Shown in pieces: positions 1 through 16,330 of a stretch of 16,330 nucleotides of DNA (the stretch's first letter is position 1; every line of letters starts with the position of its first letter). Made by a program: the position numbers and the translations under genes. Source of the DNA: Eimeria necatrix (lineage: Eukaryota > Apicomplexa > Conoidasida > Eucoccidiorida > Eimeriidae); NCBI RefSeq assembly GCF_000499385.1, contig NW_013654680.1, positions 1-16,330 of the forward strand, written 5' to 3'. Under the pieces are notes generated by a model that was not told the origin of the DNA, searched no databases, and saw nothing but the letters and a program-made list of their open reading frames with translations.

Positions 1-3000
1 GAAGTGAACCAGCTGTAAAACAGAAGGTTTCGTCTTATCACATGCATCCGGTTACTTGAAATTAAGGAAGCCTGTAATTTGCCTGAACAAAGGGCGCTTG
101 CATGAGGTACCCACTTTTTCGTGGCATGCAGCCAGTGTGTTAAGACATACGACCCAAAGTATTCATGGTTGGATTTCCAGGCTATGGTGCCGTGTGTGAT
201 GTTCTTAGTTGATCAAGTCCTGTGGATTCCAAAACAGGGCCCCGTTTAATAGTGTGGCCCACTATAATAACTGCCAGCAAGGTAGAGATCCGCATAGCAG
301 TGCTCTTGTCAGTGCCCTGTGAAGGGCTGCGATTGCTGCATTATTATTCTATTCATTCCGATTTTTTAAACGTATTCGGCTGCCATGGCCGTTTCCTTTT
401 GCTGCAGTCGTCAAATTTTAACTAGGCGTGTACAAATGAATAAACACTTTTACGGACAAGCCTTTCGGTGTCTTTTACTGTTTGTAGTTAAGTAGCGAAT
501 AGATGTGTGCTTCTATTTAACGTTTGGAGGTACTTGCATTGCCTATGTAAAGAGGTGCTTGCGGGTGTGTTTTTGTGTCTATGATCTGTGGAGAGGGATG
601 TGCAGGCACGCTGTCACTGTGCCCTAAAACATTTCGAGCAAATCTGGCTGGTGGCAAAATGCCCTTTTGCTGACTTCCACACATATGCAATCAACGCACA
701 AGACAGTGATGGCCTTTTGTTGATTTTCGTTTACATGAGTGGCTATAGCCACCTCATATGCACGTTTTCTGGCCATGGCACTTTGGGAATGCAACTGAAC
801 TTAGATCATCCGCTTTTGGCATGTGCCTGATAAATACGTTTTCCTGTATTGAGACACCTCTGGTGTTTCGCAAGGCGTGTTTGCTGTGACGCATGTTATT
901 TCACGTTGGCAGGCATCAAGAGGTATTTCTGCTATTAGGTATTTCTGTGTTTCGCAAGGCGTGTTTGCTGTGACGCATGTTATTTCACGTTGGCAGGCAT
1001 CAAGAGGTATTTCTGGAGAACGTTTCGCGTGTGCCGTACCTGTTCGCGCTTTCACGTGAAGCAGCAGGACGGCGTTCAAGACAACTCTAATTTCAAGATA
1101 AGCTCTTGTGGGGCTAAGCTTTCTCAGGGAGTATGTTGAAGAAATGGCAAAGGATCTAAATTTTGCGGAAATGGCGGCAAGTTTGCGATGCATGCCAGCG
1201 CTGAGCAATTCCGTGGCACTCGAATGGATTTATGGAAAATAGCATGTTGCCTTTTCTTTATTTTGCAAAAATACTGGAGATCAATTTGCAACAAAAAATA
1301 TAAACTTGGTTATTCTCTTCGCAGTTGCGTGTAGCACTTGTTGGGTTCCTAATGCATGAAACAGCTATCGGCAGCGAAGCCTCCAGCAAACGTTTGCCAG
1401 CCGTCTTCAGATCAAAGGCGGCCGCTGCTGCCCAGCTGTCACCAATTGCAAAATGGTGCGCTTAAAAACATCGCACTGTTCGCTATCCAGGTTGTGCGTA
1501 CAGAAGATGAGACACCTCATTATTGTTGATGTAAAACAACAAACGATAAACACGCCGCTCAAACTTCATTGATTCTCTGCTCGGCATCTCTATATCTCCG
1601 GTTGCTCGACTCATTTCTACTTAGGACGAGGGGTTTTACTGCGCTGGATCAGAAGAGTTGCTTCCGACTAAAAAACAGTTTATCTGAATTAAGACAACAG
1701 TAATGTCCAGTACTTACCAGGCAGGTCTGCAGCTATATATTGTCTTCGATAACAACCTGACGTTAGCTAGCTTTCTACCTGGTGAGAAGCCGATCGGCTG
1801 TTTAGGTGCAAGCGCCTTTTAATTGCATGCGGTAATTCATAGCTAGCGGCCTATACGACTTCAGAAGAAACCGTCCCGTGGGAGATGCCTACCTACATTT
1901 TGCGTGTCGTCCAGCCAGTATGTGAAGACACGAAGTTGGCTATTTGTTTCTGGGGTTGTGATGTCTTATAGAGCATGTGATTAAGTCTGTTGGGCAGTTG
2001 CTGTGAGATACCAAATGGACGTCCGTTCATACGTCGCTTATAAAGTAAGCGCAATAAGCAATGTGATTGGAATAGCAGCAATTTTCAGTGCAGTGTGCAG
2101 AGCAATGAGTGCTGCATGCTTGCTCTCCTTGTCGTTACTCTATCAGACATGTAACAAAGAGTCCATTTGCTCATTCCTCAAGAAATGCTGTATTTGTGTC
2201 TAAGTGCGCAAGAGGATTCAACAAGGTTCGCTCAGAAACCTGTTAGCTGCAGCATCTATCTGTTGCTTGAATGCACATCGACAAATGCAGTTGAACACAA
2301 GAGAAGGCTCACTTATGTAGTGAAATGATGCTTGTGCTCTGCTGCTTACGCGTGGCACGCGTTTGCAGCTGTGTAGTCATTATTCGTAGGCAGATGTGAG
2401 CAGCATGCCAGAGGCTTGTGGCACATGGTTGCGTCTTTCTCCAGGTGACCGCGCCGCCTTGACGATTCCTATATAGGACCTCTCTGGCATTTCGGACGGA
2501 AGAAACTTGCAATATTGCCACAACGCAGCGCTGCTGTCTAAGGGAGTGCGCGTCCACTGAAATAAGGTGTAATGTGCTACTTAATGTCAGGCCGCCACAT
2601 TGGTGTTTGCTATCGTCCAGTGCCGTGGTCGATGCCTGTTTTGCATGGGCGACGTTGCCCGGTCACCATGCCATCTGCCATCGCTACTCAGTTCACAAGT
2701 GAATGCACAGCTTTTTGATTCTTTTTTTGCGATGCATGGCTTGTGCTAAACAAATGAATAGCGGGAATGTTAGCTTTCTACGTGTTAATATCACGCGCTG
2801 CATTAGTGTTTGGCGTTGTTCGGTGGCGTGACTACTTCTTCTCGTGAGCGATTCTGACACGCTGCCCTTTTGTACGACGTTGCACTGTTCGCGTACAGGT
2901 AGTGAGTGCAGTACGGCGCTTCTTGTTTTTGGATATGAGCAATAGACAACTACAGGGCGTTCACTGCGTGTGGACTTTCGCTTTCTTAGCACTTTATGTC

Positions 3001-6000
3001 ACTGTGCAAATCTCCGCAACCCTACCTCGGTTAAGCTATAATTGTTTATCCGAAGCGAATTGACAGAAAATGGTCTGCAGCTTCCAAATGATTTGCTATG
3101 GAGGCGATTTCACAAAACCACTTGCCTGGTGGTTGATTTCCCTACCCTGCTGCTAAAGATAAAGTCTACCATAATGTACAGGGACTATTATGCAGGCGAA
3201 TTGATTATCGTCTGTTTTGGTGCAACGGTTTCCCACAACCTATGCTGCCTGTCATTATATCTCTATGGTGTGTGTTGGGAGGCAATGTGCCTGTGTACAA
3301 GATTCGAGCTTTCTAATTTGGCACAGCCAGTACGTGAAGAGAAGCGTTTCTATCGGTGAATGCATTTCCATAGTTTGACATTTACTGTGAGTCTGGTTCT
3401 CCACGCCTTTTCAAGGGAAAAAAATGAGCGCCGTCCGTTTGTCCTCCTCGCAACAAGCAGTATTAGCAAAACTTTCAAGTTTCGAATCGTTGTCAGTGCT
3501 GTATGCGGTGCAGCGTTTGTAGCATGCTAGTGCTGTCTATCCTGGTTTTCTTAACATATCCTTTTGGTGGGGGTTGCTGGTTTCGCCATTATTGTTACCC
3601 TGTTATTGGTAGCTAAGGGAAACCCCACATATGCCCATCTCCATGGCAGTCAGCAGCGTTGGCTCAACTAATCTAAAGGTTTCTACAGGGCTGACCAAGA
3701 CGCCTGCTGTCGGTGGTGTTCAACCGGAGCTTGAGTACATCTTACCTACAGCACATTCGCCTACGACCATTTGAAGAATCTTTGCGTTCTAATGCTTTGT
3801 TCAGTGTTTACCCTTGTATGTGTTTTGGTGCGTTTGCAGGCACAAAATCATATTTAGCGGCACATAGAGGATGCTAATATATTCACCACATGCTGCATTG
3901 TCCTTGTTTGTCAGTTCACAAGCGTCTGACCAGTGTCTGCAACGAGCAGCTTTCCGAAAGGTACCGAGTCCTCAGGGAGTAGGCTTTGGTGCAGGCGATG
4001 TGCTAGCAGCGTGTGAAAGCTGCGCCCACGTATGGGTTTGCTCCCTCTGGGTGCGAATATTTTTCGCACTTAGAGATAGCAAATTGGTTCTTTGTTGTGC
4101 AGCTCTAATGGATATCGACGCAGACGTTAGCGATTTGTCATACTTTTCGCAGTTTCGTGTGGCGGATTTTGAGGTCCGCTGAAAGACCAAATAGCTTTCC
4201 GTACCTAAAGTCTTGCGTAGGTTTCTTGTCTTCAGCTCGAACATGCTGACAGTGTGGCCCTCAGCGGCTGTGGTACGCTGAGTCCCTGAGCGACGCTACA
4301 TTTGTGTCACAGTCTGTGAGTGGATACTACGTTTCAGGTTTGTCGTTGGAGCACAAGAGAAATAAAAATATGCATCATCGGTACTAACTGTGCATTTGAA
4401 GTGCCTTTTGTGTAACCGTAGAGAATTATAGACATCTGCCGTACAGAAAGAGCAAATGCTGGTTTGTCCCTCCACTACGGTAAATGTCTATAATTCCCTG
4501 ACGAATTCTAACATCACGATGTGGCGTACGTGTTCTGAAGAAAATGGTTTTTCAGCAAAGGCGCGTATCCCCTTTGTGTTGCCACACAATGCGTGGCAAC
4601 ACAAAGGTGATGACATGTTGGATGAAAAGCCGGGTGTTTGACCTTAGTCGGATACTTATGTGACAGAGAGCTGATCATCATTTGTTATGGAAGCTTACTA
4701 TTACACGAGATGTGGTGTAATACGTACGATCTGTTTAAAAGGAAGTGCGCAGAGTCACGCGGATCTGTCCTTCTTCGAAAATTACAAGATGCAGACAAAT
4801 CGTGCCACTAATGGTTTCCGAATAAGTAGAGGTTTCAACGCACAGTGGAAGCATGGTGACCTGTAGCAAGAAGTAGAAAGCATGCGGACTGAAAGAGAAT
4901 AATGGCGCGCAGGCCGTGCCGGACAAGCTTGTTCCGGATTGCAAGTTACGTTTGTTAAAGCATTCGGTGCTGAAAATTGATGGTTCAGATCGCGAAATTC
5001 GGAGCCAACTCAGGATTTGTCTGTTGGGTTATCGTGAAACAGCGATTTCCGGGCCTGGAAAAAATTGTTCAGGCAATCAAGGGTGATCGCGGTGCGGAGC
5101 CTTTCGTTGTTGTGCGGGGGTGCAGACATTTTTCGCAGTACTCAGGTACTCTGTGACTTTGCTTTTGGTCCTCACATATGACTATGGCGTGAGATAAGGA
5201 GCTCATGCATTCAACAACCCGTGCCTTTTGGAACCGCGGCAGCGCAGTTATCGACTGGTCAAAGGTGCAAAATGGGTCCACAGATCCTAGCCTAGACGCA
5301 CACCTGTGGCACTCATACGAAATGCAAAAAACATCCGGGAATGCAGTTGTATGACGGATAATCGCGATTTAAGACCTTTTCGTATGAAGCGCTTTCAGCC
5401 TTATGCATTTTCGTTTTTCAGCAAACGGCAATGCCCAGGCCGGCGACCATCGGTTGCACATGTCGCTTTGTTCATCGCACATCTCCTTTTTCGCAATTGC
5501 TACATAGATCTCGGGGAAGTACAATCAGTTACGATAAATATGTGTCGATGACCGCGGTTCCAAAAGGCACGGATTGCCAGAAGCTAGTGGAGTTTCCGCC
5601 AATGCATTCTGTTTCGACGTTCCTGGGTGTATGGGTTGCTTGCTGTTTCTGTTGCGCACGAAAGAAGACCTAACATCCATTTCAGATTTTTTTTGATTGT
5701 TATGCGATTGCGGTAAGCTCGCGAATTACAGAATGCATTTTGTGCTTCGTGTTGAGTTGAGCGTCGATTGGGCTTGGACGGACGTTAGAACATCGTTTGA
5801 AATCGAACGAAGTTTAGCAGCCATGCCAGAGTGGTTTAAGACTTTGTTGAACGTAGTGAAGTTCCAAATGTCATTTACAGTGGGTGTCTAACTTCCAACA
5901 AATGCACGTGCTTGCAAAAAAAAAGATTTGGCAGCCGTGGCTGATTCCGAAACGGATGTGTCATTTGAGGGTAGTGAGGCGTTATCCAGACGTAATGGGA

Positions 6001-9000
6001 CTTTTAAAAGCACACTGCCAGTACTCAATTTGTTGCCCTTGATTTCCCAACGCGCCAATCCATGCATTGTTATGGCGTTCCTCAAATTTTCTCTCCGCAG
6101 CCCGTAGGTTCATTTGATACTGTTCGCACTTATACTTCAGGAAAAGAAAAAATGTCAAAATGTTTTTCATAGTTCTGTCGCTTTCCATCTCTCCATTGTG
6201 GCGTGAAGTGAATCTACATTAGCATCTGAACGTTGCAGTGGCCCCGATGCTAAACATGTGCGATTATGGTGCGCACGTGGTACTCTTCGTTGGAGGCGTT
6301 TTGTCGGTGGTTAATGATGTGTTCCTTGACACAATTGCCGTGTGCTCATGGCATGGCTCGAGTTCTGATGTAAAGCTGCATTCTGCACTGCGCTGACTAG
6401 CGTCTTCTTCTTAGGCGGTTATTTTTCTTGATTTTGCCTCTCATGGATCCAAGTGATTTGCAAATACGAAGGGAAACGCGACAAGCATGCATTTAGCCAG
6501 TTTAGGTGCAGAGTAGCTTTCAAAACAAAATTGGAAAGCAGCCTATGCATCTCTAGCTTTACCCATGAGCGCCACCAAATATGGCTTCACGTTTTAGTTT
6601 TGATTGCGCAATGTTTGCGGCTTCACACAAACTGCCTCGTAACCATAGCCAGTATTTGGGGTACGTTGTGACAGCTCGTTGTGGCATTCAGCCAGTGCGA
6701 CATCGCATGCTAGTTTGAAATGTCTCAGAGCGTAAATCGCTGCAGCATGACTAAATTGTTGTAGATCAGTTGCTCTGAGACTTGACAGCCAGTTTTTTGT
6801 AATACAATGCAACAGATTAAGCACGTTGCGGAAGTTTGTTCTTTGGTGACTTGCTCAAGATATTTTACGCAAGTACGCGTGGTTTGTAAATACGACTAGT
6901 ACATCACGGCTGTTTCCCAGCATGATTCTAAGCGTCACCGATTCAAAATTGTGGACATGTTTTGATTAATTGCCTTCCTGCTGCATTCCACTGAATACTA
7001 ATGTGCCGCCCCTCAGCAGTAGACGAATTGTTCCTGATTTGGGAACAATGCTGTGAAGTACACTTACGAAGCAGAGAGCTGCCACCAATTTGTAGACACT
7101 TTGAATTCCGCGTTTAGCAACGCCCCGTCACCCTTCACAGATCATTCCTCGGACTTTTCAGCAGCATCTGGTGGGCTGCCTTCTTACGTGAAATGCTCCT
7201 GCGCGGTGCCAGAAAAGGCGTGGCAGACGATGCGTGCGAAGTGACTTGAAGTTTAGATCCAGAAAATGTGATTCTAAAACACTCCTTGCAGTGGCATCCC
7301 TTCATGTTGCATGTGCACGAAAAACTAACCTTCTGCTACTTGTTGCTAAACCGTCCACAGCTACCATCGCAGCCAGAGACCTTGAGATGCGCCGGAACCT
7401 TTAAAGCAAATTTGGGCTAATTATTCAATGTGTTTGAAACGTAGTGCTTCCATCCGAATTGGGTGGCACGGCATATGGTTGCTTATTGAATTTAAAGTAA
7501 TCTTGAGTCTCTGGTATCGTTAAACGGCTATACAATACATGCTGACAGAAGGCGTAGGCTTCCGTGCACTCTTTTGTCTCAGGTTGTGCGCAAATCGCGA
7601 CAGTGGCACACTCATACAGTAAACGTTCAATGATGAGGTTTTGGATGCTTCAATAATCTTCCGGTCCACTTTGTGCGTCGTGGCTAATTTAATAAACTGT
7701 CGGCCTGTCCAGACAATGTACATGCTCTCATAATCGCTGCATTTAGTTTGCATGAGATAACACGCCTGCTTTTGTGAAGGACACCTCCGCTTTACTCAGC
7801 CGCTATTCGTTGCCTGCCGATTATTCGCCTATGTAGGCTCTCTGAGGTGCTATACCTGTCCTCCTGTTTCGTGGCAGCTTGCCTGATGATATTCTGTCGT
7901 GTATCGTTTTGTCTACTCAGGCATACGACCGTTTTGCACGTTAAGGATTGCTGTGCCCACAACCCCTAATATTGGGGCTATATCTGTGTCTAATCATTTT
8001 TTATAAGAAACGATTCAGAAACGTCATCGGATTGTGTCCTGAAATAACGTTATTTGCATACAAAACGGTGGGTTGTTTTGTCGCCAGCACCGACAGAAAC
8101 GAGTCCGATGCATTTACCCCATGCTATCGGCATGCTGTCGGGTACAGCATGGCATGCCTCATGGAATCCGTCGTGTGGAGCCTCTTGGTCTAATTGTGAG
8201 GTGAGTATGTCACTCATGTACAGAAAACGTCTAGATGTTTTGAAAAGGCTGACTTTGCAGGGAGTACGTGACAGAACATACATGCGTTTTGCACGTAGTT
8301 CTTGCGATATCATGCAGCAAAGACGATGTAGGCATTTACAGGCATGTTTACTTGAACAACTAATCTTTTAGCTATCATCACAGCTGGTCTCGAAGTATAT
8401 TGCGCAAAAGATATTTATACCTTGCCTTCATCTGCTGCATCAACATATCTTTATTTCCACTACTGCTACGCTGCAGATCATTACAGTGGCTTGGTGATTG
8501 TCATGTGCTAGACTATCGTCGGAAAAAGATTGCACTTCCGGTCCTGTCGTCTCAGGCGCTAACAGGCGGACCTTGAGAGCTTGTTTACTCATCATAATCG
8601 AGTGCGACGCACTTCCTGTTAGCCCCGTAGCGCCTTGGGATTGAAAGCTTGTCTCCTTTTTAGGCAGAATTCAAGTCGCGAGAAGGTGGAACGACAGCGA
8701 ACCAGACATGCTGCAATGTTGGCTTGTAGCCAGTGAGTGTACAGGAGGAGCTGGCGTCATGGTTGAACAGTAGAACGGAATTATAGGGGTGTGAAGACAC
8801 TAATATTGTCTTTTGATCGTGTTTGCATCATGACTGCTGTGGCAGCAAAAAAGCAGAATTGAAGCCATGTTGCCGAGGAACCAGCTCTTCGGAATATATT
8901 TTTGGTATGTCTTTTTCTGTCACTGGCTGGGAATATTTCCTTGGCTGTATTCGGCATAACTTGCTCGCTGCAGTTGTTGCAGTGGTATGAGCAGCCAGAT

Positions 9001-12000
9001 TGATATGCAGCTCAAATTGGTAAGTGTTTCCGAAATTACAGGAGGATGCGGAAAAATTTTCTCGCGGTTTACTGTGTGTTTGCAGACGCTCAGTCAATGC
9101 TTTGCGCGTGCCGCGCATGACACAGCGAGTAAGACATAAACCGAATATTTATTCTCTGGTGAGACGGCTACTTTTTTGGAACTCAGAGGGTTCACTTCAG
9201 ATTCCATATTTGCTATGAAGTGCACGAAATCTGTAGTTAGCCTGTCGCCGACGCCCTGACGTGCCTCAGAGCATTGAAACTCCTATGAAATTCTTTGTGG
9301 AACTGTGACACGTGTTTGTTACTGACGCTGACAGGAATTGTCGAATCAAAATGTCCTATTTTTGCAGGGAGTAAGTGTTGACCCATGCACACGTAACAAA
9401 CATGACTTCGTATATTGGGGCAAAAGCGAGCCAGACTATTTGGCAGTGATTCCTCTATACCATGCTTCATTCAGGTGCTATGCGCACCGGGCATTCATGC
9501 AATGCTTCGCTGTTCATGGCAATATATGCGCTCTGCTACTTTCAGTTGCACAAGAGCTCGTCAGGAAGGCCTTTGGACCATATGTATCTGAGCCTTAAGA
9601 GTTTCTGCAGATATCGCCGCAGTTCCCAAAGTGCCAAAGTCAAGCATTCTGCGGTTGCTTGTTCAGAATAGTCAGGAACGGTGCGCTTTTCGCCATGCGG
9701 TGGCTCCTTGCAGTGCCACTCCACAGCCGGTCGGACAATGACGTACCATGTGTTACCTGTTCGCAGCGTGACACTATGTGACCAGGTAGTACCACAAAGA
9801 GCAAAATCCATTGTCGTGCTGCAGCCTGTAAGTATTTCACAGAAACTTCCTGCTGGCAAAGTGACGGCTCCACATAGCTATATCGACCTTTTCCATGCTA
9901 AGGCCTGCGGCATGGCTGGCGATGTGTCATTGGCTCCATTTGACACACATGCCATATTTTTCGACACTTGTTCCTGCTTTGCCTCCCGTCATAGCTCTCA
10001 AAATGAGATGCGGGGAAACCTTTTATATGCGTTCTTCAGGTTGGAAGCCGTTTGGGCAAAGGCCTCTGCGTGTGGAGACGTTTGTATGAGCCCCACAGCA
10101 CGTTTGTCAGACTGGGCGTGAGTGTTTTGCGTTATGCGCAGCCAGTAAGAAAAATAATATAGCGTATCATATCTAGTGTGTGAGACCGATATTTGGAGAG
10201 CTTCCAGGGCTTCTTTGTGCTTTGATATTTGTTTCGCCCTTCGTGGAGTCCGCATTCAGCCTGCAGAGGAAAACGTGTCCTGTGTCGCAATCTTCGCCTT
10301 ATAGTCGAGTACTTTAGCACAACGCTGATATGGTTGAGTCACTATTGCGAAACGCAATCGGCAATTGATGCTCTGACTTTGCAGGGAGTACGCAACGGCA
10401 CGCAACACGCAACAGCTTGTGCAAACATTTCCAAAGCGTTTCATAAAATCTCTGCCGTGATAGTTGAGCATACCCACGTTAGTAAATCGAACTTTCATCG
10501 TGGTGTTAAGCTCAGGTGGTGTTTCATGAATTATCTGGCTACTGCTTAAGCAAATGCACACCTCCGCTGCGTCCCGCTAATTTACAACACAGCTGGATTT
10601 ATCAATCATCTTATACTGGAACGCACGTAGCAGAGTTTCACCTTAGAGCTCCCACCTCCTCTAGAAATGTGGAAGATACTGTATATTCGACGCGCAGCCT
10701 GTACGTGCCGTGGAGGCCGTCGTTTCCTGCTAACACGGTAAACCACAATCATACAAAAACACACACATCGACGCTTTCCCAGTACAATGCCTGTAGCAGG
10801 CTTGTTGTTGCGAAAAACTACGCTCAAACAGATGTTGTCAACGATAGACTAACTCATAATACCGTGCGAAGCCTTCTGAAAATAGTGCGATGTCCTTTCA
10901 AGCCAACGTAGATGCATCGTGCTGCAGCGTTTCGCCTTCCGTTGCTGCTGTTTTGATAAGATGCTCCATTGTTCGCCCCATTCGCACTTTGGGTAGGACA
11001 GTGTTATTTTCAGAGCTATTGTATGCAACGTCACTTGCGCGAGGTGAGAAGCTTGTCTGTCGGACGTTTTGGAAACGTTTTGTGAGCACTGTGTCTCACA
11101 GCCAGTACGAAGCCAATGTTAGATTTATGGTTTAATGCGCATCCAGAAGTGTGTCGGGAAACTGCATTTGTGGTCCCCCTGTTGAGATCAATAGAAACGG
11201 TGTCAGAGCACTCGTCTTTTCGGACAGGCGCTTTGTAAAAGCGCGAAACCGTTGAACGGCTCATGCAGGACGCATTCTGCGTTTGGAGAGGCTGTTATTC
11301 TGCAGGGAGTAGGCTATGGTGCATGCAGAAGTTCCCAAAGTGACTCATCTAATATGTGCGCACTAGCATGCCTCAGGCATTGGCAATTATTCTCACTTAG
11401 TCGCACAGTTTCGCGAGAGATCCGCACAGTGAGCGGTGCCTGAGTGCGGTGCTGAACCTAGATTCAAGGTTTGTATAGATATTTTTCATGTGCAAATATG
11501 CGCTCGAGATGTTTCCTGTTTGCTTTAAATTTATTAATGTTTCTGAAGCGTGCAGCCTGTCAAGCTTTATGAACTAATAATAACCATTTTGTTTGTTGTA
11601 ATTTGCATTACAGAGGACAAGGCCAATCGTTGTTCCTTTTCTGTCACCTGAAACGATATGTCATTTGTTTTGCGGCGGATATGTCCAGTGCGAAACTACC
11701 GCACTTCGGGCACTTAGGTGTCTTTTCTTACTTCGATGAACATTGCAAGTGGCAAGAAGGTGGAAGACGAGCAAGTGAAGTATACACCGTTATCGGGCTG
11801 CAGCCTGTATGTATAGGGGAGATGCATGCTTTTGCGTGATGGTCCCGTTTTGCAATGGAAAATGTGGTCAAAGGATGGCAAATGAATCGGCTATGTTCAG
11901 CTCAATGTCTGTGGCGTGCCTGCTGTAAAGACGAACTGTCAATTTCGAAGTCATGTTACTGCCAATTAGATGATACATAATGGTGTCTAGGGTTATCGCT

Positions 12001-15000
12001 GTTTAGACGTGAGTAGGGATATCTCATGTTTTGAAATGAGTGTGTTTTTCCTTGAGCACTGCTGCTTGCTTTGCTTTCCACAACAGTCACCGGAGTAATG
12101 ACAAAAAAGTGCTTTTTCTAAGATAGCCAAAAATGCCTCTAGATGAGCAGTTTGGTTCTGATACTGCAACTAGTTGTGTTCGTTGATGTGTAGGCGCTTC
12201 GTCGAGGTGCGCAGTGTGTGTGTAGACCTGCTTCCGAATTTGGAAGAACCGCGTTGCTCGCAGCCAGTACGAAATCCAGTGTCATATGCGTGAGCTTTAG
12301 TGCGCAAAAAGCTTGCGCAGCACGTGTGGGTTTGCCCATTTATTCAAATGTGTACGAAATTCATAGTCAGCCTATAGAGAGCAACGTCCATTGTGTTACA
12401 GCAATGCATCTTTTGCAATGGCTCATGCCTTAACAGTGGCATGGCTCTGTCAGTCATACAGAAAACAGTAAGCGATTAGAAGGCCTTCATTTTTCAGGGA
12501 GTAGGCGTTGGCTCATTTATGCATAGCAGGCGTGGCTCGTATACTACCCGGCCGCAGGCACCGGCGATTAATATTGTCGATGCGAAAAATGCTATGAGCA
12601 ACCACGAGTGCAACCTGAACCTTTGTTTGCTAATTACCACACGTTCATGCATTCTATTGGTGCTCTACTTTTATAAATATGCATTTGAATGGCTTCTCGC
12701 CAGCAGTACTTATTAACGTTTGCAGCCTGCGACAAGACATGCATTTGGATGTTGCTCAGCTGTCTCGGGCTTTGTGAGCGTCGCTGGATGCCCTGACAGC
12801 CGCTGAGCATTTTCTAGGATTCTTGAATTATGCTGTTGTGTTCGAGACTGACTAGTTCGGAGCAACGCCGCAGCACTTCGGGTTCAGACACATGTTGTGT
12901 CGCTTCTCCTCAGATTTGAACAGTCTAGCAGCTATAGCGGATGCGAATGCACCAAGCCGAATTGCCGACGTGAAGGAAGTATGTGTCAGTCACGTGCTCG
13001 CCTCACGTGTAAAAAGTGAAACGGGACCATACGGCTGCACGCACATCAAGGTATGGAAAGCCGAGATCTGCGGCGCGCCTTCCCTGTAGTGAAAATGCCT
13101 TCCCCGCATCAAAGTAGTATTCAAGTATAGAGCAGTTCGGAGTTGTCTGGAGACTTTGCCCGTTATAAATGTACTCTTCCTTGATCATTGCCATTAGAGA
13201 TATTGTAGACAGAGGCAGAATTTTCCTTAAATATGATAAGCTTGCGTCTGACGGCGTCACGCGTCACTGACAAAGTTGTTCATTGCGAGTACACCTGCTA
13301 AAGGTTCGCAGTGAGTTTACTAGGCGCTTTTGATCTTTCTGGAAGATCGTGTGGAACGCAGCCAGTACGAAATGCAACACAAGATAGCAGCTTCAGTGTA
13401 CGTGATGCAGTATCTTAGAATGAAATCCGTATTCAGCGTGTCCACGATAGTATGCGTCACAGCACTGGTCCTTCTCTAATGTGTCTGTCCGCAACTGTGA
13501 ACGAATTCTGTCCCTCATGCACGGCGCATTTGGTCTTTAAATGGCCACCTATTTTGCAGGGAGTAAGCTATGGCCAATGCGAACGTCCCAAATGTGGCCG
13601 AAGTTACATCTAGCCACTCCTATGCTGTTTATATTGGCGGTTAATCCCACCGGTATTCACGGCATCGTAGGAGACCGCAGTTGCAACTTGCATCCTAGTT
13701 TGATGCTGGGACTCCCTGCACGTTATGTCAAGGTCTTCTGCTTGTCAAAGAGTGTTTCTCCAATGTTGATGCCTCACCTCGACCTAATATGCGGCGCTTG
13801 AAAGTTGTAGCCTGCCAGCGTGTGTGCACTTGAATGCAGCAATCTTGCGTTTCGTGTGGCCTTTTTCACGTAGTCCAATGTCACAGCATTTCGTCGTCTC
13901 TCCTTGAAACTTCCAGTGTTTCCGTTATGCAGACTGTAAAAGCCAAAATACTGAAACGCAAGTGGACAAAGTAGGCTGCATTGTCGATGTGCAGGCTGTA
14001 AGAGTGCAGAAGGCGCTAAAAACAAACAGTGCCACCGCACCATGCAGCTGCATGGGCATCGACATTGTCAAGAGGTGAATCTGCCGCAGGCGTGCTGTGG
14101 AGAGGAGCTGGAAGGCCTAGATGCTTGTAAATGATTGGATGCTTCAGAGTAGTGTCTGAGTTCATCGTTGTTCGGTGTTTACAGAAGGTGTTTCCTCGGC
14201 TGTGTTCAAGACAAACGCACTTTACAGCGAGGCAAGCTCTTCTCCATTTTTCGTTCTTGTTTCATGTGTTGAAGCAGCCACTGGTAGACGCGGACTTCTC
14301 GTTCTACCTCGTTACCACTTGTTATACTGTGTGCAAAGACACTTCCGCAAGGTGCGCACCGCGTTTGGCAAATGTTTACGGACAGGCGTGTCAGCACCTT
14401 GCGGAACCCAGCCAGTAAGACATACGTTTTTAGTTGTTTATTTTATTGTGTAGAGAGTAATTGTTTGGGCCTGACGGTGATTCTTTGCGATTGGCACGTG
14501 TTCCAATGTGCGTGCAATGGTAGTCACACTGTTGAGGGTGTCATATCTTGCTGTACGGCCTTCGATGCCTTGTAAACAATTCTGTGTCCAGTGTGTTTTA
14601 GTCGTGCATGCAAGGCTCAGTTGATGTTCGAAATACCTTGAATTTGCAGGGAGTAAGAGATGGCCGAAGCAAGCGTTCCAAACATTTCTCAGATTAAAAT
14701 GTCTCAGTCTCAGTAACAGGTTACACACATTGTTTGGACGGAGGACATCGTGACGGCGAGCCTTTCACCGTAGACGTAGACTCACATGATTTATTGGTGT
14801 TTAGCCCTGCGTACCTAACTATTTCAAGCTCTTCTTGCTTGGTATCGGAGGTGTGTGAAGACTGCAGCGCCTTATAGTACATGAGGATGAATGCGGCGTT
14901 TCTGTCCCGCGAATATGAATGTTGCCCTACTGTGTCGTTGAGCGTCACGAGGCAGCTGCTCATCCGGTGTCCAATCGTCATTATTAGCCAAACGTTTCTG

Positions 15001-16330
15001 TATATTTTGTCGCTGGCTCGTGCGGTACGGCGCTACAGCATTTCGGGATTAGATCTTCTACGCAAACTACAGAAGCCGGCAGGGCCGAATGGAAGCAAAA
15101 GAAATGTGGTGCTTTGCTGTCCCTAAGGAAGTACGTTTCTATGAGTTGCTTTTATGGGGTGATGGCTCCCCGATTCCAACGTGATAGAGCACCATATACG
15201 TAAACACATGTCGACATTTTTCATGCCACTGTCTGTGCATTTCCTGCTGGAAACTCGAAACGGCAGGCTTGAAGTCATATTGTCAAAGGTTCAGTGATTC
15301 ACATCGCGCTTAGGGATTTCTTTGTTTTGAGTTGGCTGGGGATGTTTCCTTGGCTTTGTCTCACAAAAATGCCCATTTCCTCGAAGGCTGCTACTGCTTT
15401 GGCTTTTCGTTGTAGCTCGTATAGCTAGATATGTTGTTCAGCTTGGACCGGGTAACATTACTGGCTGCTTTGCATACGGCAACAGTCATCTCAGGAGTGC
15501 AGTTCGTTCGTCTAACGTTTTGTTTGTTTTCTTTGTGAGCACTGCCTGGAATGCAGCCAGTACGCAATCCAACGCTCGATATGAGCTTCAGTGTACATGG
15601 AGTAGTGTCACGGGACGAAGACTACAGTGAATCCGCCCACCATAGCATGCCATGTGTCAGAGCACAGGACGCTCTGTAAAGTCTCTGCGTACACGTTTGA
15701 CATAATTCTCATTCACGCGAGACAGAATCAATCGAATGGTTGCTGATTTTGCTTATTTCGCAGGGAGTATGCGGGCGATCGTGTATGCAAACAAAGCTGG
15801 CTCGCTGAATATCTGGGCATCAATATGCAGCAAGTGATGACGATTAACATTGCTGTTGTGTAAACCGTCATCGGTGATCCTGAATGCAACTTCCTCGTTG
15901 ATTTGATCCTGGGCAGTAGCGAATTGTATAACTGTCTGCATATGCGGTTTGGTTGGTTTTTGACCACTTTAAGCTAGCCAGTGGTACTTCTAGCCTCCAA
16001 ACGTCAAGACATCTAAATGTTTCGTTCGTGTATGAGGAGTTGTTCATGTCACCATACTGACGTTTAATCGTTCTTTGTTCACTAAAACGTGAGACCGTGT
16101 GATGTTTGCATTATGACTGGTATGTGTTGTTCAATGCCAGAGCCACTTGGGCTATGATATACGCTGCGTCGTATGTAGGCAACCTGCATGAACCACAAAC
16201 GGTAGATGACAAGCAAGTGCAATATATTGTACTTTCGATGCGCAGTCTGTACGTGCCGTGGAGGCCGTCGTTTCCTGCTAACACGGTAAACCACAATCAT
16301 ACAAAAACACACACATCGACGCTTTCCCAG
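1..16330 (+). CDS. Interior of a giant collagen-like gene built of single-codon exons (partial both ends)
   Basis: Seen: about 36 AG|NNN|GT sites whose 3-nt cores, read 5' to 3', cycle Gly, X, Y. The 3' run (8261-16248) gives GPR, GPP, GPP, GPP, GEP, GAP, GEP, GS; the 5' run (1128-4744) gives GVP, GVP, GSE. All confidently placed Gly exons are GGA. Y is CCA except CGA and GAA. X is CCT, GCT, TCT, GAA, GTT, GTA or CCA. The exact string CAGGGAGTA occurs 10 times and CAGCCAGTA 8 times, against about 0.06 expected per 9-mer in a random window this size. Introns start GTA/GTG and end mainly CAG, and all junctions are phase 0. Known: Gly-X-Y with X=Pro and Y=Pro is the collagen triple-helix motif. 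Inferred: splicing joins these codons into a collagen-like segment, at roughly 1.1-1.4 kb of gene per three residues. No start, stop, signal peptide or non-collagen domain lies in the window. An alternative is a non-coding or decayed array, but the strict order and homologous flanks argue against chance. Confidence 0.82.
132..134 (+). CDS. Microexon, Y position, Pro (CCA)
   Basis: CAG|CCA|GTGTGT. The donor is GTG rather than GTA, but the intron continues with aagacatacg, as in the Y-type intron after the exon at 14412. It lies 993 nt before the Gly exon at 1128, so it fits the last codon of a triplet whose G and X exons lie upstream of the window. Confidence 0.55.
135..1127 (+). other. Intron, Y to G class (993 nt), containing an 84-bp tandem duplication
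   Basis: This is the longest intron among the confidently placed exons; its sister Y-to-G introns in the 5' array are 625 and 646 nt. I see no exon-like AG|NNN|GT site in the right order inside it. The 84-bp duplication at 864-1015 accounts for part of the extra length. Open frames here are short and resemble nothing known. Confidence 0.5.
864..1015. repeat. 84-bp-period tandem duplication
   Basis: Bases 864-931 and 948-1015 are direct copies at an offset of 84. Both start tgtttcgcaaggcgtg and end aagaggtatttctg. The 16 bases between them repeat the end of the unit imperfectly. Two identical copies point to a recent duplication inside an intron. It opens a minus-strand frame with a repeated peptide, which I take as a by-product. 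Confidence 0.9.
1128..1130 (+). CDS. Microexon, G position, Gly (GGA)
   Basis: A pyrimidine-rich acceptor, aagctttctcag, is followed by GGA and the donor GTATGT. It matches the other CAG|GGA|GTA sites exactly. The next intron (360 nt) leads to the Val exon at 1491. Confidence 0.75.
1491..1493 (+). CDS. Microexon, X position, Val (GTT)
   Basis: The acceptor tgttcgctatccag is followed by GTT and the donor GTGCGT. Upstream bases (cgcactgttcgc) match those before the Val exon at 2899, and the junction resembles that at 7583. GTT could be misread as the start of the donor, but the position between G and Y exons supports the codon reading. Confidence 0.6.
1915..1917 (+). CDS. Microexon, Y position, Pro (CCA)
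   Basis: The acceptor ttgcgtgtcgtccag precedes CCA and the donor GTATGT. The intron start GTATGTGAAGA matches GTACGTGAAGA after the exon at 3327, one unit downstream. It completes a Gly-Val-Pro triplet with 1128 and 1491. Confidence 0.78.
2543..2545 (+). CDS. Microexon, G position, Gly (GGA), AAG acceptor
   Basis: gctgctgtctaag precedes GGA and the donor GTGCGC. Both sites depart from the CAG/GTA consensus, but the exon is 1415 bases after the GGA at 1128 and the gaps on either side match the unit. Gly codon identity is kept. Confidence 0.62.
2899..2901 (+). CDS. Microexon, X position, Val (GTA)
   Basis: gcactgttcgcgtacag precedes GTA and a strong donor, GTGAGT. The site reads CAG|GTA|GTGAGT, so it could also work as a zero-length (recursive) splice site using CAG|GTAGTG. 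The spacing (353 and 425 nt introns) and the upstream match to 1491 favour a Val exon. Confidence 0.6.
3327..3329 (+). CDS. Microexon, Y position, Pro (CCA)
   Basis: ttctaatttggcacag precedes CCA and the donor GTACGT. A branch-point-like ctaat lies close upstream. It ends the second Gly-Val-Pro triplet, 1412 bases after the CCA at 1915. Confidence 0.78.
3976..3978 (+). CDS. Microexon, G position, Gly (GGA)
   Basis: gtaccgagtcctcag precedes GGA and the donor GTAGGC. The intron start gtaggctttggtgca closely resembles gtaggctatggtgca after the Gly exon at 11306, over 7 kb away. This is good evidence that the two are paralogous units. Confidence 0.78.
4313..4315 (+). CDS. Microexon, X position, Ser (TCT)
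   Basis: tacatttgtgtcacag precedes TCT and a consensus donor, GTGAGT. It lies 1414 bases after the X exon at 2899, which in turn lies 1408 after the one at 1491. Ser at X also occurs at 16246. Confidence 0.65.
4423..4496. repeat. Inverted repeat, 21-nt arms with a 32-nt loop
   Basis: Arms 4423-4443 and 4476-4496 are complementary at 19 of 21 positions, with one of the two exceptions a possible G-U pair. They lie in the X-to-Y intron between the exons at 4313 and 4742. The RNA would fold into a hairpin. I see no transposon terminal motif or target duplication. Confidence 0.75.
4571..4607. repeat. Perfect 15-bp stem-loop with a 7-nt loop
   Basis: 4571-4585 (cctttgtgttgccac) pairs perfectly with 4593-4607 around the loop acaatgc. 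It lies in the same intron as the inverted repeat at 4423. It has no terminator-like U tract and no coding role that I can see. Confidence 0.85.
4742..4744 (+). CDS. Microexon, Y position, Glu (GAA), AAG acceptor
   Basis: gatctgtttaaaag precedes GAA and the donor GTGCGC. Spacing predicts a Y exon here: the intron of 426 nt matches 421 and 425 nt in the two previous units. Glu at Y is unusual beside the otherwise near-constant Pro. The AAG acceptor recurs at both other GAA exons (12976, 15128). Confidence 0.5.
6101..6103 (+). CDS. Microexon candidate, Pro (CCC), X or Y position
   Basis: aaattttctctccgcag is one of the best pyrimidine tracts in the window. It precedes CCC and the donor GTAGGT. 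By spacing from 3327 and 4742 it would be a Y exon; if the CCA at 6692 is used it would be X. The register is unresolved. Confidence 0.5.
6692..6694 (+). CDS. Microexon candidate, Y position, Pro (CCA)
   Basis: cgttgtggcattcag precedes CCA and the donor GTGCGA. The following gacatcgc resembles gacatacg after the Y exons at 132 and 14412, suggesting common origin. Its spacing to 6101 (588-nt intron) is longer than usual for X to Y, so it may be a decayed copy. Confidence 0.42.
7583..7585 (+). CDS. Microexon candidate, Val (GTT), probably X position
   Basis: cactcttttgtctcag precedes GTT and the donor GTGCGC. The junction GTT|GTGCG and the upstream gcact tract match the X exon at 1491. A GGC|GTAGGC resembling a Gly-exon donor lies only 29 nt upstream, as if the G-to-X intron had suffered a deletion. 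Confidence 0.45.
8261..8263 (+). CDS. Microexon, G position, Gly (GGA), first of the unbroken 3' run
   Basis: aggctgactttgcag precedes GGA and the donor GTACGT. The string ctgactttgcagggagtacg is shared with the Gly exon at 10385. From here each expected exon is found in order to the end of the window. Confidence 0.85.
8730..8732 (+). CDS. Microexon, X position, Pro (CCA), TAG acceptor
   Basis: caatgttggcttgtag precedes CCA and the consensus donor GTGAGT. It is the only X-position Pro written CCA. The upstream bases agaaggtggaacgac align with agaaggtggaagacg before the X exon at 11804, which fixes it as X rather than Y. Confidence 0.65.
9126..9128 (+). CDS. Microexon, Y position, Arg (CGA)
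   Basis: gccgcgcatgacacag precedes CGA and GTAAGA. The intron start gtaagacata matches that after the Y exon CCA at 14412, so this is a CCA exon changed at one base. Gly-Pro-Arg is a common collagen triplet. Confidence 0.78.
9368..9370 (+). CDS. Microexon, G position, Gly (GGA)
   Basis: gtcctatttttgcag precedes GGA and a full-consensus donor, GTAAGT. It is 239 nt after the Y exon and 454 nt before the next X exon. Confidence 0.88.
9825..9827 (+). CDS. Microexon, X position, Pro (CCT)
   Basis: cattgtcgtgctgcag precedes CCT and a full-consensus donor, GTAAGT. It is one of three exact CAGCCTGTA sites, all at X positions, whereas Y-position Pro is CCA throughout the 3' run. Confidence 0.87.
10142..10144 (+). 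CDS. Microexon, Y position, Pro (CCA)
   Basis: ttttgcgttatgcgcag precedes CCA and GTAAGA. It completes Gly-Pro-Pro with the exons at 9368 and 9825. Confidence 0.87.
10385..10387 (+). CDS. Microexon, G position, Gly (GGA)
   Basis: gatgctctgactttgcag precedes GGA and GTACGC. It shares its junction sequence with the Gly exon at 8261, two units upstream. Confidence 0.88.
10692..10782 (+). repeat. Exon-intron block duplicated at 16240-16330
   Basis: The 91 bases match 16240-16330 with one difference, the first base of the X codon (CCT here, TCT there). Upstream of the acceptor similarity falls off quickly. The match runs to the last base of the window, so its true length is unknown. Confidence 0.95.
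10698..10700 (+). CDS. Microexon, X position, Pro (CCT)
   Basis: tatattcgacgcgcag precedes CCT and GTACGT. It lies at the start of the block repeated near the window end, where the same site carries TCT (Ser). Confidence 0.87.
11102..11104 (+). CDS. Microexon, Y position, Pro (CCA)
   Basis: cactgtgtctcacag precedes CCA and GTACGA. Upstream ttgtgagcactg recurs before the Y exon at 15557. It completes a second Gly-Pro-Pro. Confidence 0.88.
11306..11308 (+). CDS. Microexon, G position, Gly (GGA)
   Basis: aggctgttattctgcag precedes GGA and GTAGGC. The intron start (gctatggtgcatgc, then gttcccaaa) resembles those after the Gly exons at 13560 and 14650. Confidence 0.88.
11701..11710 (+). promoter_or_regulatory. 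Conserved intronic element GCAYTTCGGG (copy upstream of 11804)
   Basis: gcacttcggg lies 103 bases before the X exon. Copies or near copies are at 12873-12882 (103 before its exon), 15038-15047 (90) and 13886-13895 (gcatttcgtc, 109). A role in recognising the X exon is possible; simple shared ancestry of the introns is the plainer explanation. Confidence 0.45.
11804..11806 (+). CDS. Microexon, X position, Pro (CCT)
   Basis: ttatcgggctgcag precedes CCT and GTATGT. The intronic element gcacttcggg lies 103 bases upstream, as it does for the X exon at 12976. Confidence 0.87.
12264..12266 (+). CDS. Microexon, Y position, Pro (CCA)
   Basis: ccgcgttgctcgcag precedes CCA and GTACGA. The intron start gtacgaaatcca resembles gtacgaaatgca (13365) and gtacgcaatcca (15560). 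It completes a third Gly-Pro-Pro. Confidence 0.89.
12498..12500 (+). CDS. Microexon, G position, Gly (GGA)
   Basis: aggccttcatttttcag precedes GGA and GTAGGC. It has a strong pyrimidine tract and follows a 231-nt Y-to-G intron. Confidence 0.88.
12873..12882 (+). promoter_or_regulatory. Conserved intronic element GCAYTTCGGG (copy upstream of 12976)
   Basis: gcacttcggg lies 103 bases before the Glu exon, the same distance as in the unit before. The equal offset despite diverged sequence around it is the reason to list it. Confidence 0.45.
12976..12978 (+). CDS. Microexon, X position, Glu (GAA), AAG acceptor
   Basis: ttgccgacgtgaag precedes GAA and the donor GTATGT. The acceptor is AAG with a poor pyrimidine tract, but the position (475 nt after G, 383 nt before Y) and the gcacttcggg element 103 bases upstream match the X exon at 11804. 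Gly-Glu-Pro is a common collagen triplet. Confidence 0.68.
13362..13364 (+). CDS. Microexon, Y position, Pro (CCA)
   Basis: atcgtgtggaacgcag precedes CCA and GTACGA. The following intron shares agcttcagtgtac with the one after 15557. Confidence 0.89.
13560..13562 (+). CDS. Microexon, G position, Gly (GGA)
   Basis: ccacctattttgcag precedes GGA and GTAAGC. The intron start gtaagctatggcc and the later cgtcccaaa align with the introns after 11306 and 14650. Confidence 0.89.
13995..13997 (+). CDS. Microexon, X position, Ala (GCT)
   Basis: ttgtcgatgtgcag precedes GCT and GTAAGA. GCT is one base from CCT and TCT. The related element gcatttcgtc lies 109 bases upstream. It gives Gly-Ala-Pro. A weaker CAG|ACT|GTAAAA near 13931 is a less likely alternative. 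Confidence 0.78.
14412..14414 (+). CDS. Microexon, Y position, Pro (CCA)
   Basis: ccttgcggaacccag precedes CCA and GTAAGA. The intron start gtaagacata is the same as after the Arg exon at 9126. Confidence 0.88.
14650..14652 (+). CDS. Microexon, G position, Gly (GGA)
   Basis: taccttgaatttgcag precedes GGA and GTAAGA. Downstream gatggccgaagcaagcgttc aligns with the intron after the Gly exon at 13560. Confidence 0.88.
15038..15047 (+). promoter_or_regulatory. Conserved intronic element GCAYTTCGGG (copy upstream of 15128)
   Basis: gcatttcggg lies 90 bases before the Glu exon, preceded by aca as in the copy near 13886. Confidence 0.42.
15128..15130 (+). CDS. Microexon, X position, Glu (GAA), AAG acceptor
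   Basis: tgctttgctgtccctaag precedes GAA and the donor GTACGT. The tract is pyrimidine-rich despite the AAG. Element gcatttcggg lies 90 bases upstream. The surrounding introns (475 and 426 nt) match their classes, giving Gly-Glu-Pro. Confidence 0.7.
15557..15559 (+). CDS. Microexon, Y position, Pro (CCA)
   Basis: ctgcctggaatgcag precedes CCA and GTACGC. Both flanks align with other Y exons: ttgtgagcactg upstream as at 11102, and gtacgcaatcca downstream as at 12264. Confidence 0.89.
15764..15766 (+). CDS. Microexon, G position, Gly (GGA)
   Basis: ttttgcttatttcgcag precedes GGA and GTATGC. It is 204 nt after the Y exon, as expected for this class. Confidence 0.88.
16240..16330 (+). repeat. 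Second copy of the exon-intron block at 10692-10782
   Basis: Identical to 10692-10782 except for one base, the first base of the codon, at a constant offset of 5548. It is cut by the window edge. Confidence 0.95.
16246..16248 (+). CDS. Microexon, X position, Ser (TCT)
   Basis: actttcgatgcgcag precedes TCT and GTACGT. The downstream intron is identical to that after the CCT exon at 10698, so a single C-to-T change turned Pro into Ser. The matching Y exon should lie some 300-460 nt beyond the window. Confidence 0.82.

Follow-up and report, generated by a model that had tools for sequence, protein, structure and literature searches.

Ordered one-codon sites on an Eimeria necatrix contig point to a probable collagen-like gene with predicted three-nucleotide exons

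Animal fibrillar collagen genes encode Gly-X-Y repeats, have grown by exon duplication and carry exons of 45, 54 or 108 bp. In the recursive (ratchet) splicing of long introns an acceptor is directly followed by a donor, and such sites are used stepwise. The extreme microexons of Arabidopsis and of RPS24 are isolated exons in normal genes, and we know of none among them that belongs to a gene built of such exons. The stretch analysed here (the window) is the whole of contig C1040 of Eimeria necatrix (NW_013654680.1; 16,330 bases, from a genome of 44.0 Mb in 1,148 contigs), and its subject is a series of one-codon sites, defined as AG-NNN-GT, that is, three nucleotides flanked by an intron-type acceptor and donor. 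The window is most likely the interior of a gene (at a probability of roughly 0.88) in which each predicted exon would be one codon (GGA, X or Y) and whose product, after intron removal, would be collagen-like with Gly-X-Y repeats. Such a gene would resemble the fibrillar collagens in its Gly-X-Y coding and its growth by duplication, and would differ from them in its 3-nt exons, the triplet being split over three of them. Recursive splicing leaves a 0-nt exon, whereas the array loci would leave one codon, so that the ratchet would write protein sequence.

The closest described counterparts are the micro-exon genes (MEGs) of Schistosoma, which share with the array loci an abundance of very short exons whose lengths are mostly divisible by three, long introns and a tendency to be missed by automatic annotation (PMC10526429). 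In passages of the same paper the exons are given as 6–81 bp (3–81 in the abstract), mostly 15 bp, with 10–20 per gene. The Eimeria loci differ from MEGs in their predicted exon length of 3 nt, in their density (126 strict sites over 16 kb of contig C485), in the Gly-X-Y order of the window and in their apicomplexan host. Judged from DNA only, they show the very short exons in multiples of three, and C485 lies outside the MEG size range of 6–81 bp, mostly 15 bp. Spliceosomes can include exons of 1–3 nt, as indicated in the descriptions of a 1-nt exon of Arabidopsis (PMC4674806) and a 3-bp exon of RPS24 (PMC12686416). The earlier note on this DNA knew of no described gene with long runs of single-codon exons, and the open-licence PMC literature searched offered no such precedent, MEGs being the nearest, and no paper on single-codon exons or on tiny exons in coccidians; a literature of this scope leaves absence unproven. 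By their machinery the array genes would be extreme micro-exon genes, and they are set apart here as new on the ground that exon and codon would coincide along the whole gene.

All 23 sites that the note had listed between 8261 and 16248 on the plus strand are present, at the positions and in the order given there, which reads GPR GPP GPP GPP GEP GAP GEP GS. Triplet 1 comprises the predicted 3-nt exons GGA (Gly, 8261–8263, CAG-GGA-GTACG), CCA (Pro, 8730–8732, TAG-CCA-GTGAG) and CGA (Arg, 9126–9128, CAG-CGA-GTAAG) at the positions G, X and Y. In the same order, triplet 2 is formed by GGA (9368–9370, CAG-GGA-GTAAG), CCT (Pro, 9825–9827, CAG-CCT-GTAAG) and CCA (10142–10144, CAG-CCA-GTAAG), triplet 3 by GGA (10385–10387, CAG-GGA-GTACG), CCT (10698–10700, CAG-CCT-GTACG) and CCA (11102–11104, CAG-CCA-GTACG), and triplet 4 by GGA (11306–11308, CAG-GGA-GTAGG), CCT (11804–11806, CAG-CCT-GTATG) and CCA (12264–12266, CAG-CCA-GTACG). 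Triplet 5 would consist of GGA (12498–12500, CAG-GGA-GTAGG), GAA (Glu, 12976–12978, AAG-GAA-GTATG) and CCA (13362–13364, CAG-CCA-GTACG), triplet 6 of GGA (13560–13562, CAG-GGA-GTAAG), GCT (Ala, 13995–13997, CAG-GCT-GTAAG) and CCA (14412–14414, CAG-CCA-GTAAG), and triplet 7 of GGA (14650–14652, CAG-GGA-GTAAG), GAA (Glu, 15128–15130, AAG-GAA-GTACG) and CCA (15557–15559, CAG-CCA-GTACG). Both GAA sites carry the weaker acceptor AAG. Triplet 8 begins with GGA (15764–15766, CAG-GGA-GTATG) and TCT (Ser, 16246–16248, CAG-TCT-GTACG), and the contig ends 82 nt further on. In-silico splicing of this chosen chain gives GPRGPPGPPGPPGEPGAPGEPGS, with Gly at every third residue and X and Y rich in Pro.

The spacing in the chain is 313–498 nt from G to X, 317–460 from X to Y and 198–243 from Y to G, with G-to-G steps of 0.9–1.2 kb. 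The intron lengths had been called rigid and class-specific; the second term is borne out, and the first is not, the spacing within each class being loose. The flanks had been called homologous, which applies weakly and near the exons: the introns are mostly unalignable between triplets and what homology remains is weak and lies mainly there. A 114-nt segment around the X exon of triplet 3 (10669–10782, plus strand) is 94% identical to a second copy at 16217–16330, inside which contig C1040 ends; the codon is CCT in the first and TCT in the second. A blind order test on the thinned window sites gave four of seven Gly-to-Gly steps equal to 3 (permutation p 0.017), a modest result because unassigned sites are interspersed in the series and one or two of its members score under the threshold. 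The joined 23-mer scores 20.5 bits (E 4.1e-4) with the Pfam Collagen profile (PF01391), under the curated cut-off of 27.2, in a test that has little power because the model has 60 positions and the query 23.

Similar arrays lie on other contigs, and in the window the series reaches 5' beyond the start noticed earlier, through ten further sites in the first 5 kb, which stand in the same order on the plus strand. These are CCA (Pro, 132–134, CAG-CCA-GTGTG); upstream triplet a with GGA (Gly, 1128–1130, CAG-GGA-GTATG), GTT (Val, 1491–1493, CAG-GTT-GTGCG) and CCA (1915–1917, CAG-CCA-GTATG); triplet b with GGA (2543–2545, AAG-GGA-GTGCG), GTA (Val, 2899–2901, CAG-GTA-GTGAG) and CCA (3327–3329, CAG-CCA-GTACG); and triplet c with GGA (3976–3978, CAG-GGA-GTAGG), TCT (Ser, 4313–4315, CAG-TCT-GTGAG) and, tentatively, GAA (Glu, 4742–4744, AAG-GAA-GTGCG). 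The acceptors of GGA 2543 and GAA 4742 are weak (score 7.6 each). This 5' set has fairly regular spacings of its own (363/424/628, 356/428/649 and 337/429 for triplets a, b and c, and 996 from P132 to G1128); the 356/428 around the weak GGA of triplet b is close to the 363/424 of triplet a, and the X-to-Y distance of 429 that places the tentative GAA is close to those of triplets a and b.

The length of the sites was assessed by counting YAG-N(k)-GTRNG for each k, with the codons ignored. On the plus strand of the window 36 matches are found at k=3, against a mean of 4.65 over 20 other lengths within k=1–21; the minus strand has 4 at k=3. The window together with 19 other loci gives 271 at k=3 on the coding strand versus 52.3 at other lengths, and the opposite strands of these 20 loci give 47 at k=3, where other lengths give 24–50. 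In C485 (14 kb) the peak is sharp, with 110 at k=3 against a mean of 4.25, 3 at k=15, between 1 and 7 at every length other than 3 and 15, no excess at 6, 9 or 12, and 0 at k=3 on the opposite strand. Four loci on C200 and C561 contain 50 matches at k=3 versus 0–7 at other k. A splice model trained on C485 only and applied to the window (score of at least 9) found 37 sites at k=3, 2 on the other strand, and 2–6 for each of 11 other lengths. Zero-length exons of the recursive type (k=0) showed no excess (30 in the 20 loci versus 33 on the other strand, and 1 in C485). A slight excess at k=1 was seen on the coding strand of the 20 collagen-type loci (79 versus about 52).

The peak is also present genome-wide. 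Of the 99 matches to TTGCAG-N(1–15)-GTAAGT, 23 fall at k=3, the other 14 lengths having a mean of 5.4 and the reversed control 52 matches. For TTGCAG-N(1–12)-GTACGT, k=3 accounts for 22 and k=1 for 26 of the 100 matches listed (out of 145), with 86 in the reversed control; 25 of the k=1 matches, i.e. 25 of the 100 listed, are TTGCAGTGTACGT, and many others also end in TGTACGT. The pattern TGCAGGGAGTANG has 51 matches on 37 contigs and none in its reversed control.

These counts bear on the simplest alternative, a chance enrichment of AG and GT in T/G-rich DNA or a non-coding tandem repeat. Sites of the form AG-NNN-GT are indeed common in the window (108 on the plus strand and 44 on the minus strand), but composition would produce neither a peak at exactly 3 nt nor the strand asymmetry. 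Five second-order Markov versions of the first 14 kb of C485 contained 13–19 sites, where the real sequence has 126 and its opposite strand 6, at a looser score (this 126 and the strict count of 126 over 16 kb are different counts). Tandem Repeats Finder reported no repeat array in the window, its output being a single 54-nt row. Chance or composition was rejected on the length spectrum, the strand asymmetry and the Markov controls, and a plain tandem repeat on the single row; together they retain next to no probability.

Of 20 fetched stretches inspected by eye, nine show a clear Gly-X-Y order (L032, L036, L037, L038, L040, L041, L043, L049 and L050), of which L041 provides an example: RGICPGPPSGPPAGPRGPPG. 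The earlier note would have counted equally ordered sites in unrelated DNA against itself; what was found is ordered Gly-X-Y arrays on other contigs, in those nine stretches, and one-codon sites that lack a collagen order. The latter are best seen on C485 (1–16000, minus strand; L017/L054/L055/L056), a locus retrieved through the G-exon motif, in which the 126 strict sites follow each other at one per about 111 nt, with 101 of 125 spacings within 80–150 nt, and spell a non-collagen peptide. Eighteen different amino acids are encoded and G occupies codon position 1 in 56 of the 126. Gly and Pro dominate the collagen-type loci (63 and 65 of 235 residues), whereas C485 has only 18 and 6 of 126. 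Tandem duplicates of neighbouring units are present in C485, each of about 130–280 nt with one or two codons. The C200 and C561 loci show the same one-codon behaviour, and the phenomenon reaches beyond collagen, since one-codon sites without collagen order exist elsewhere. A match of the C485 peptide to the Cor a 1 allergen was weak (E 0.13) and disappeared once the peptide was extended.

In L042 (C426:1–10000, minus strand) the Gly-X-Y sites begin after runs of hydrophobic codons at one-codon sites (TVVLLAIATLGIFV), and in L048 (C845:1–10000, minus strand) a run reading AISITALIFI lies ahead of the Gly-X-Y sites, with L 2.1 kb later. By eye, both runs look like a putative signal peptide or membrane anchor, predicted at one codon per exon. 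Open reading frames (ORFs) resembling by eye parts of the gag, reverse transcriptase and integrase of long terminal repeat retroelements were noticed on the plus strand of L048 (about 989–5100) and on the minus strand of L034; those of L048 lie between predicted one-codon sites of the opposite strand, i.e. inside a predicted intron. The Pfam Collagen profile has at least 132 matches in the genome (from 150 scored candidates out of 418); many fall on the same short places, in overlapping frames or on the two strands, and the matches were taken for simple repeats.

The codons themselves were examined in 447 strict coding-strand sites (36 in the window, 126 in C485, 50 in C200/C561 and 235 in 19 loci), a set that includes chance sites and in which the strand was assigned by majority, L034 being excluded from all oriented sets because its strand is ambiguous. 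The opposite strands hold 51 strict sites. None of the 447 is a stop codon, where 4.4% would be expected from the triplets of the same loci (p 1.8e-9), and two of the 51 are. Several array loci are paralogous, which allows their sites to be compared. In five diverged contig pairs of 70–92% identity, AG and GT are both kept at 46 of 48 sites with k=3 versus 16 of 65 sites of other lengths (p 2.5e-15); sites of both kinds were picked in either copy, with the splice model trained on C485 only. Gly is kept in 14 of 15 cases and other residues in 21 of 31. The paralogous loci L006 (C206) and L011 (C354) are 92% identical and have eight one-codon sites in common, with one residue differing (CTC versus GTC). 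Two of the note's proposals gain from the evidence as a whole. That each exon would be one phase-0 codon, as predicted from DNA, is supported by the 3-nt peak, the strand bias, the lack of stops and the dinucleotides kept in paralogues; the Gly-X-Y coding is supported by the order in the window, the retention of Gly and the Pfam match below cut-off.

A number of observations weigh against a translated collagen-like gene. In the window, the region 4745–8260 holds strong plus-strand sites without assignable order: CCC (Pro, 6101–6103, CAG-CCC-GTAGG, score 17.1), CCA (Pro, 6692–6694, CAG-CCA-GTGCG, score 13.4) and GTT (Val, 7583–7585, CAG-GTT-GTGCG, score 14.4), all outside the chain. The order had been described as unbroken, which is true of the chosen chain; other sites lie between its exons, some of similar score, among them TGT 10177, TGT 12215 (competing with the Y exon of triplet 4), CGT 13819 and ACT 13933 (both competing with the X exon of triplet 6) and TTC 15503. 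Five of the 20 stretches have only few Gly/Pro sites (L033, L035, L042, L047 and L048) and six lack clear Gly-X-Y order (L034, L039, L044, L045, L046 and L051). Stops do occur outside the strict set, with a TGA site in L050 (score 7.9) and one in L028, on the strand opposite that contig's array, and the unoriented genome-wide k=3 lists hold one each (TAG of 23, TAA of 22). In the five contig pairs, conservation of the three letters of the codon amounts to 39, 39 and 37 of 46 sites and the Gly contrast alone has p 0.07; the letters evolve at roughly the rate of the introns, and beyond the Gly bias there is no purifying signal at the amino-acid level. Two within-locus duplicate pairs keep the splice dinucleotides at 3/3 and 2/2 sites, but the residue differs at each of the five, with a Gly replaced at two (a further within-locus pair, L044dup, was left out of the counts as aligned to itself). 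The additional pairs L033/L046 and L033/L051 offer one site each, of which one has GC instead of GT, under a partly collagen-trained model. The joined C485 peptide has no relative in Pfam, the PDB or a large protein set, nor a normal-exon paralogue in its own genome, an empty result that alone shows nothing. A clear branch-point motif was not found, nor was a prolyl-hydroxylase-type domain (PF13640) in the genome read in six frames, where introns could hide one.

The splice frame is thus clearly held, whereas residues are conserved at best where they are Gly, and even Gly is replaced in some copies. Such weak residue conservation is tolerable at the X and Y positions of collagen and is equally expected of an untranslated ratchet, and it is the main result against the translated gene. 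Under that alternative the splice sites would be true, but would serve as ratchet points for the removal of giant introns, with the three bases not kept in the mRNA or not translated. The maintenance of splice dinucleotides alongside codon letters that diverge roughly as quickly as the introns fits it, as does the C485 peptide without relatives. An untranslated ratchet would not be expected to avoid stop codons at all 447 strict sites, to place Gly at every third site of the chosen window chain or to retain 14 of the 15 Gly residues compared across contigs, and the length peak stands at 3 nt, where classic recursive splice sites would have it at 0; this alternative is given a small probability. 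A similarly slight chance is left to decay, in which the arrays would be pseudogene exons of former one-codon-exon genes, amplified by tandem duplication. The arrays are duplicated, sites are sparse or disordered at some loci (L039, L044–L046 and L051) and part of the window series is absent (4745–8260), all as decay would have it; splice dinucleotides preserved at 46 of 48 sites against an overall identity of 70–92%, and strict sites free of stops, are not what it predicts.

The array contigs might also derive from a contaminating organism in the Eimeria assembly, a very unlikely origin. Their loci have 45–49% GC, and two tubulin loci are higher at 57%; in E. falciformis, however, introns have 47.1% GC and coding exons 55.9%, as reported in part of PMC4287421, and the GC content of the array loci is therefore that expected of intron-rich Eimeria DNA. 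Long contigs, for example C200 with its 258 kb, carry one-codon sites too, and C703 carries both a ROP17-like ORF and one match to the G-exon motif. This ORF (L025:3–1745, minus strand) is rhoptry-kinase-like, has 579 residues and is 93% identical to ROP17 of E. tenella, the next named match of four, from E. praecox, having 52%. Ordinary genes are present in the genome, including tubulin matches of 84 to 507 nt, and its beta-tubulin exon is nearest to tubulin chains which we take to be Toxoplasma entries. The surface antigen family PF11054, which is presumably linked to Eimeria, has 131 genome matches, many in long tandem arrays (on C26, C38, C79, C58, C996, C1056 and others). Such gene content suggests an Eimeria close to E. 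tenella, in keeping with E. necatrix.

The donors are of the GTRNGT type with a strong G at +5, and most acceptors read CAG, preceded by T-rich sequence from -15 to -3, a consensus that is partly built in by a search pattern requiring YAG and GTRNG. The window contains no tRNA, no Rfam match at gathering scores and no closed ORF longer than 149 aa from stop to stop; ten of its 26 closed ORFs of at least 90 aa were scanned and had no Pfam match at the family cut-off, with a single sub-threshold match to DUF3549. RNA genes and ordinary exons were rejected on these scans as readings of the window. A perfect 69-nt direct repeat (863–931 and 947–1015, start-to-start distance 84 nt) lies within a predicted intron, and a 25-nt inverted match of 96% joins 5215–5239 and 5552–5576.

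The translated one-codon gene suggests the following course of splicing. Introns of about 0.2–1 kb, of the ordinary GT-AG type, would separate neighbouring single codons. Each acceptor would probably be joined first, which would at once place the next donor three bases downstream, and the introns would be removed one after another, since three nucleotides probably offer too little room for the two splice-site complexes at the same time. Splicing would in this way act as a ratchet that lays down one codon per step, similar to recursive splicing with an exon of 3 instead of 0 nt. With every unit being one phase-0 codon, the frame would stay intact whenever units are tandemly duplicated, lost or skipped, and arrays could grow residue by residue (as with the C485 units) or triplet by triplet (as with the G-to-G steps of the window). 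The tandem duplicates of C485 and the 114-nt copies of the window, with their codons CCT and TCT, suggest such growth and variation without frame shift.

Genes of this layout would escape gene finders, and also RNA mapping with a required exon length of more than 10 nt. A cDNA mapping study accepted only exons longer than 10 bp (PMC3315734), and the mean exon in the chromosome-level assembly of E. tenella is given as 350 bp (PMC8515493), so that one-codon exons could easily be missed. Passages of PMC3505466 describe E. tenella chromosomes as an alternation of feature-poor P segments and feature-rich R segments, the P segments being richer in AT and almost without simple repeats. Eimeria may possess a second gene layout, a whole class of loci in which exon equals codon and the spliceosome ratchets over tens of kb at one amino acid per intron, and such genes, hidden from gene finders, might occupy some of the feature-poor segments that are AT-richer and free of repeats; this broader proposal, which goes well past the window, is tentative and has slightly less than an even chance, and the presence of such genes in the P segments of E. 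tenella is a guess.

The chromosome-level E. tenella assembly, as presented in part of PMC8515493, and RNA data make the claim directly testable. If it is true, exons would have no practical lower size limit, and more than 100 splicing steps would be spent on a peptide of as many residues. This would bear on the recognition of microexons, on the origin of introns and proteins (by codon-wise growth through tandem duplication) and on the seemingly empty segments of Eimeria genomes. With one-codon units that leave the frame untouched, proteins could gain, lose or exchange single residues, and collagen-like apicomplexan proteins would be of interest for their putative role in parasite walls or at the parasite surface.

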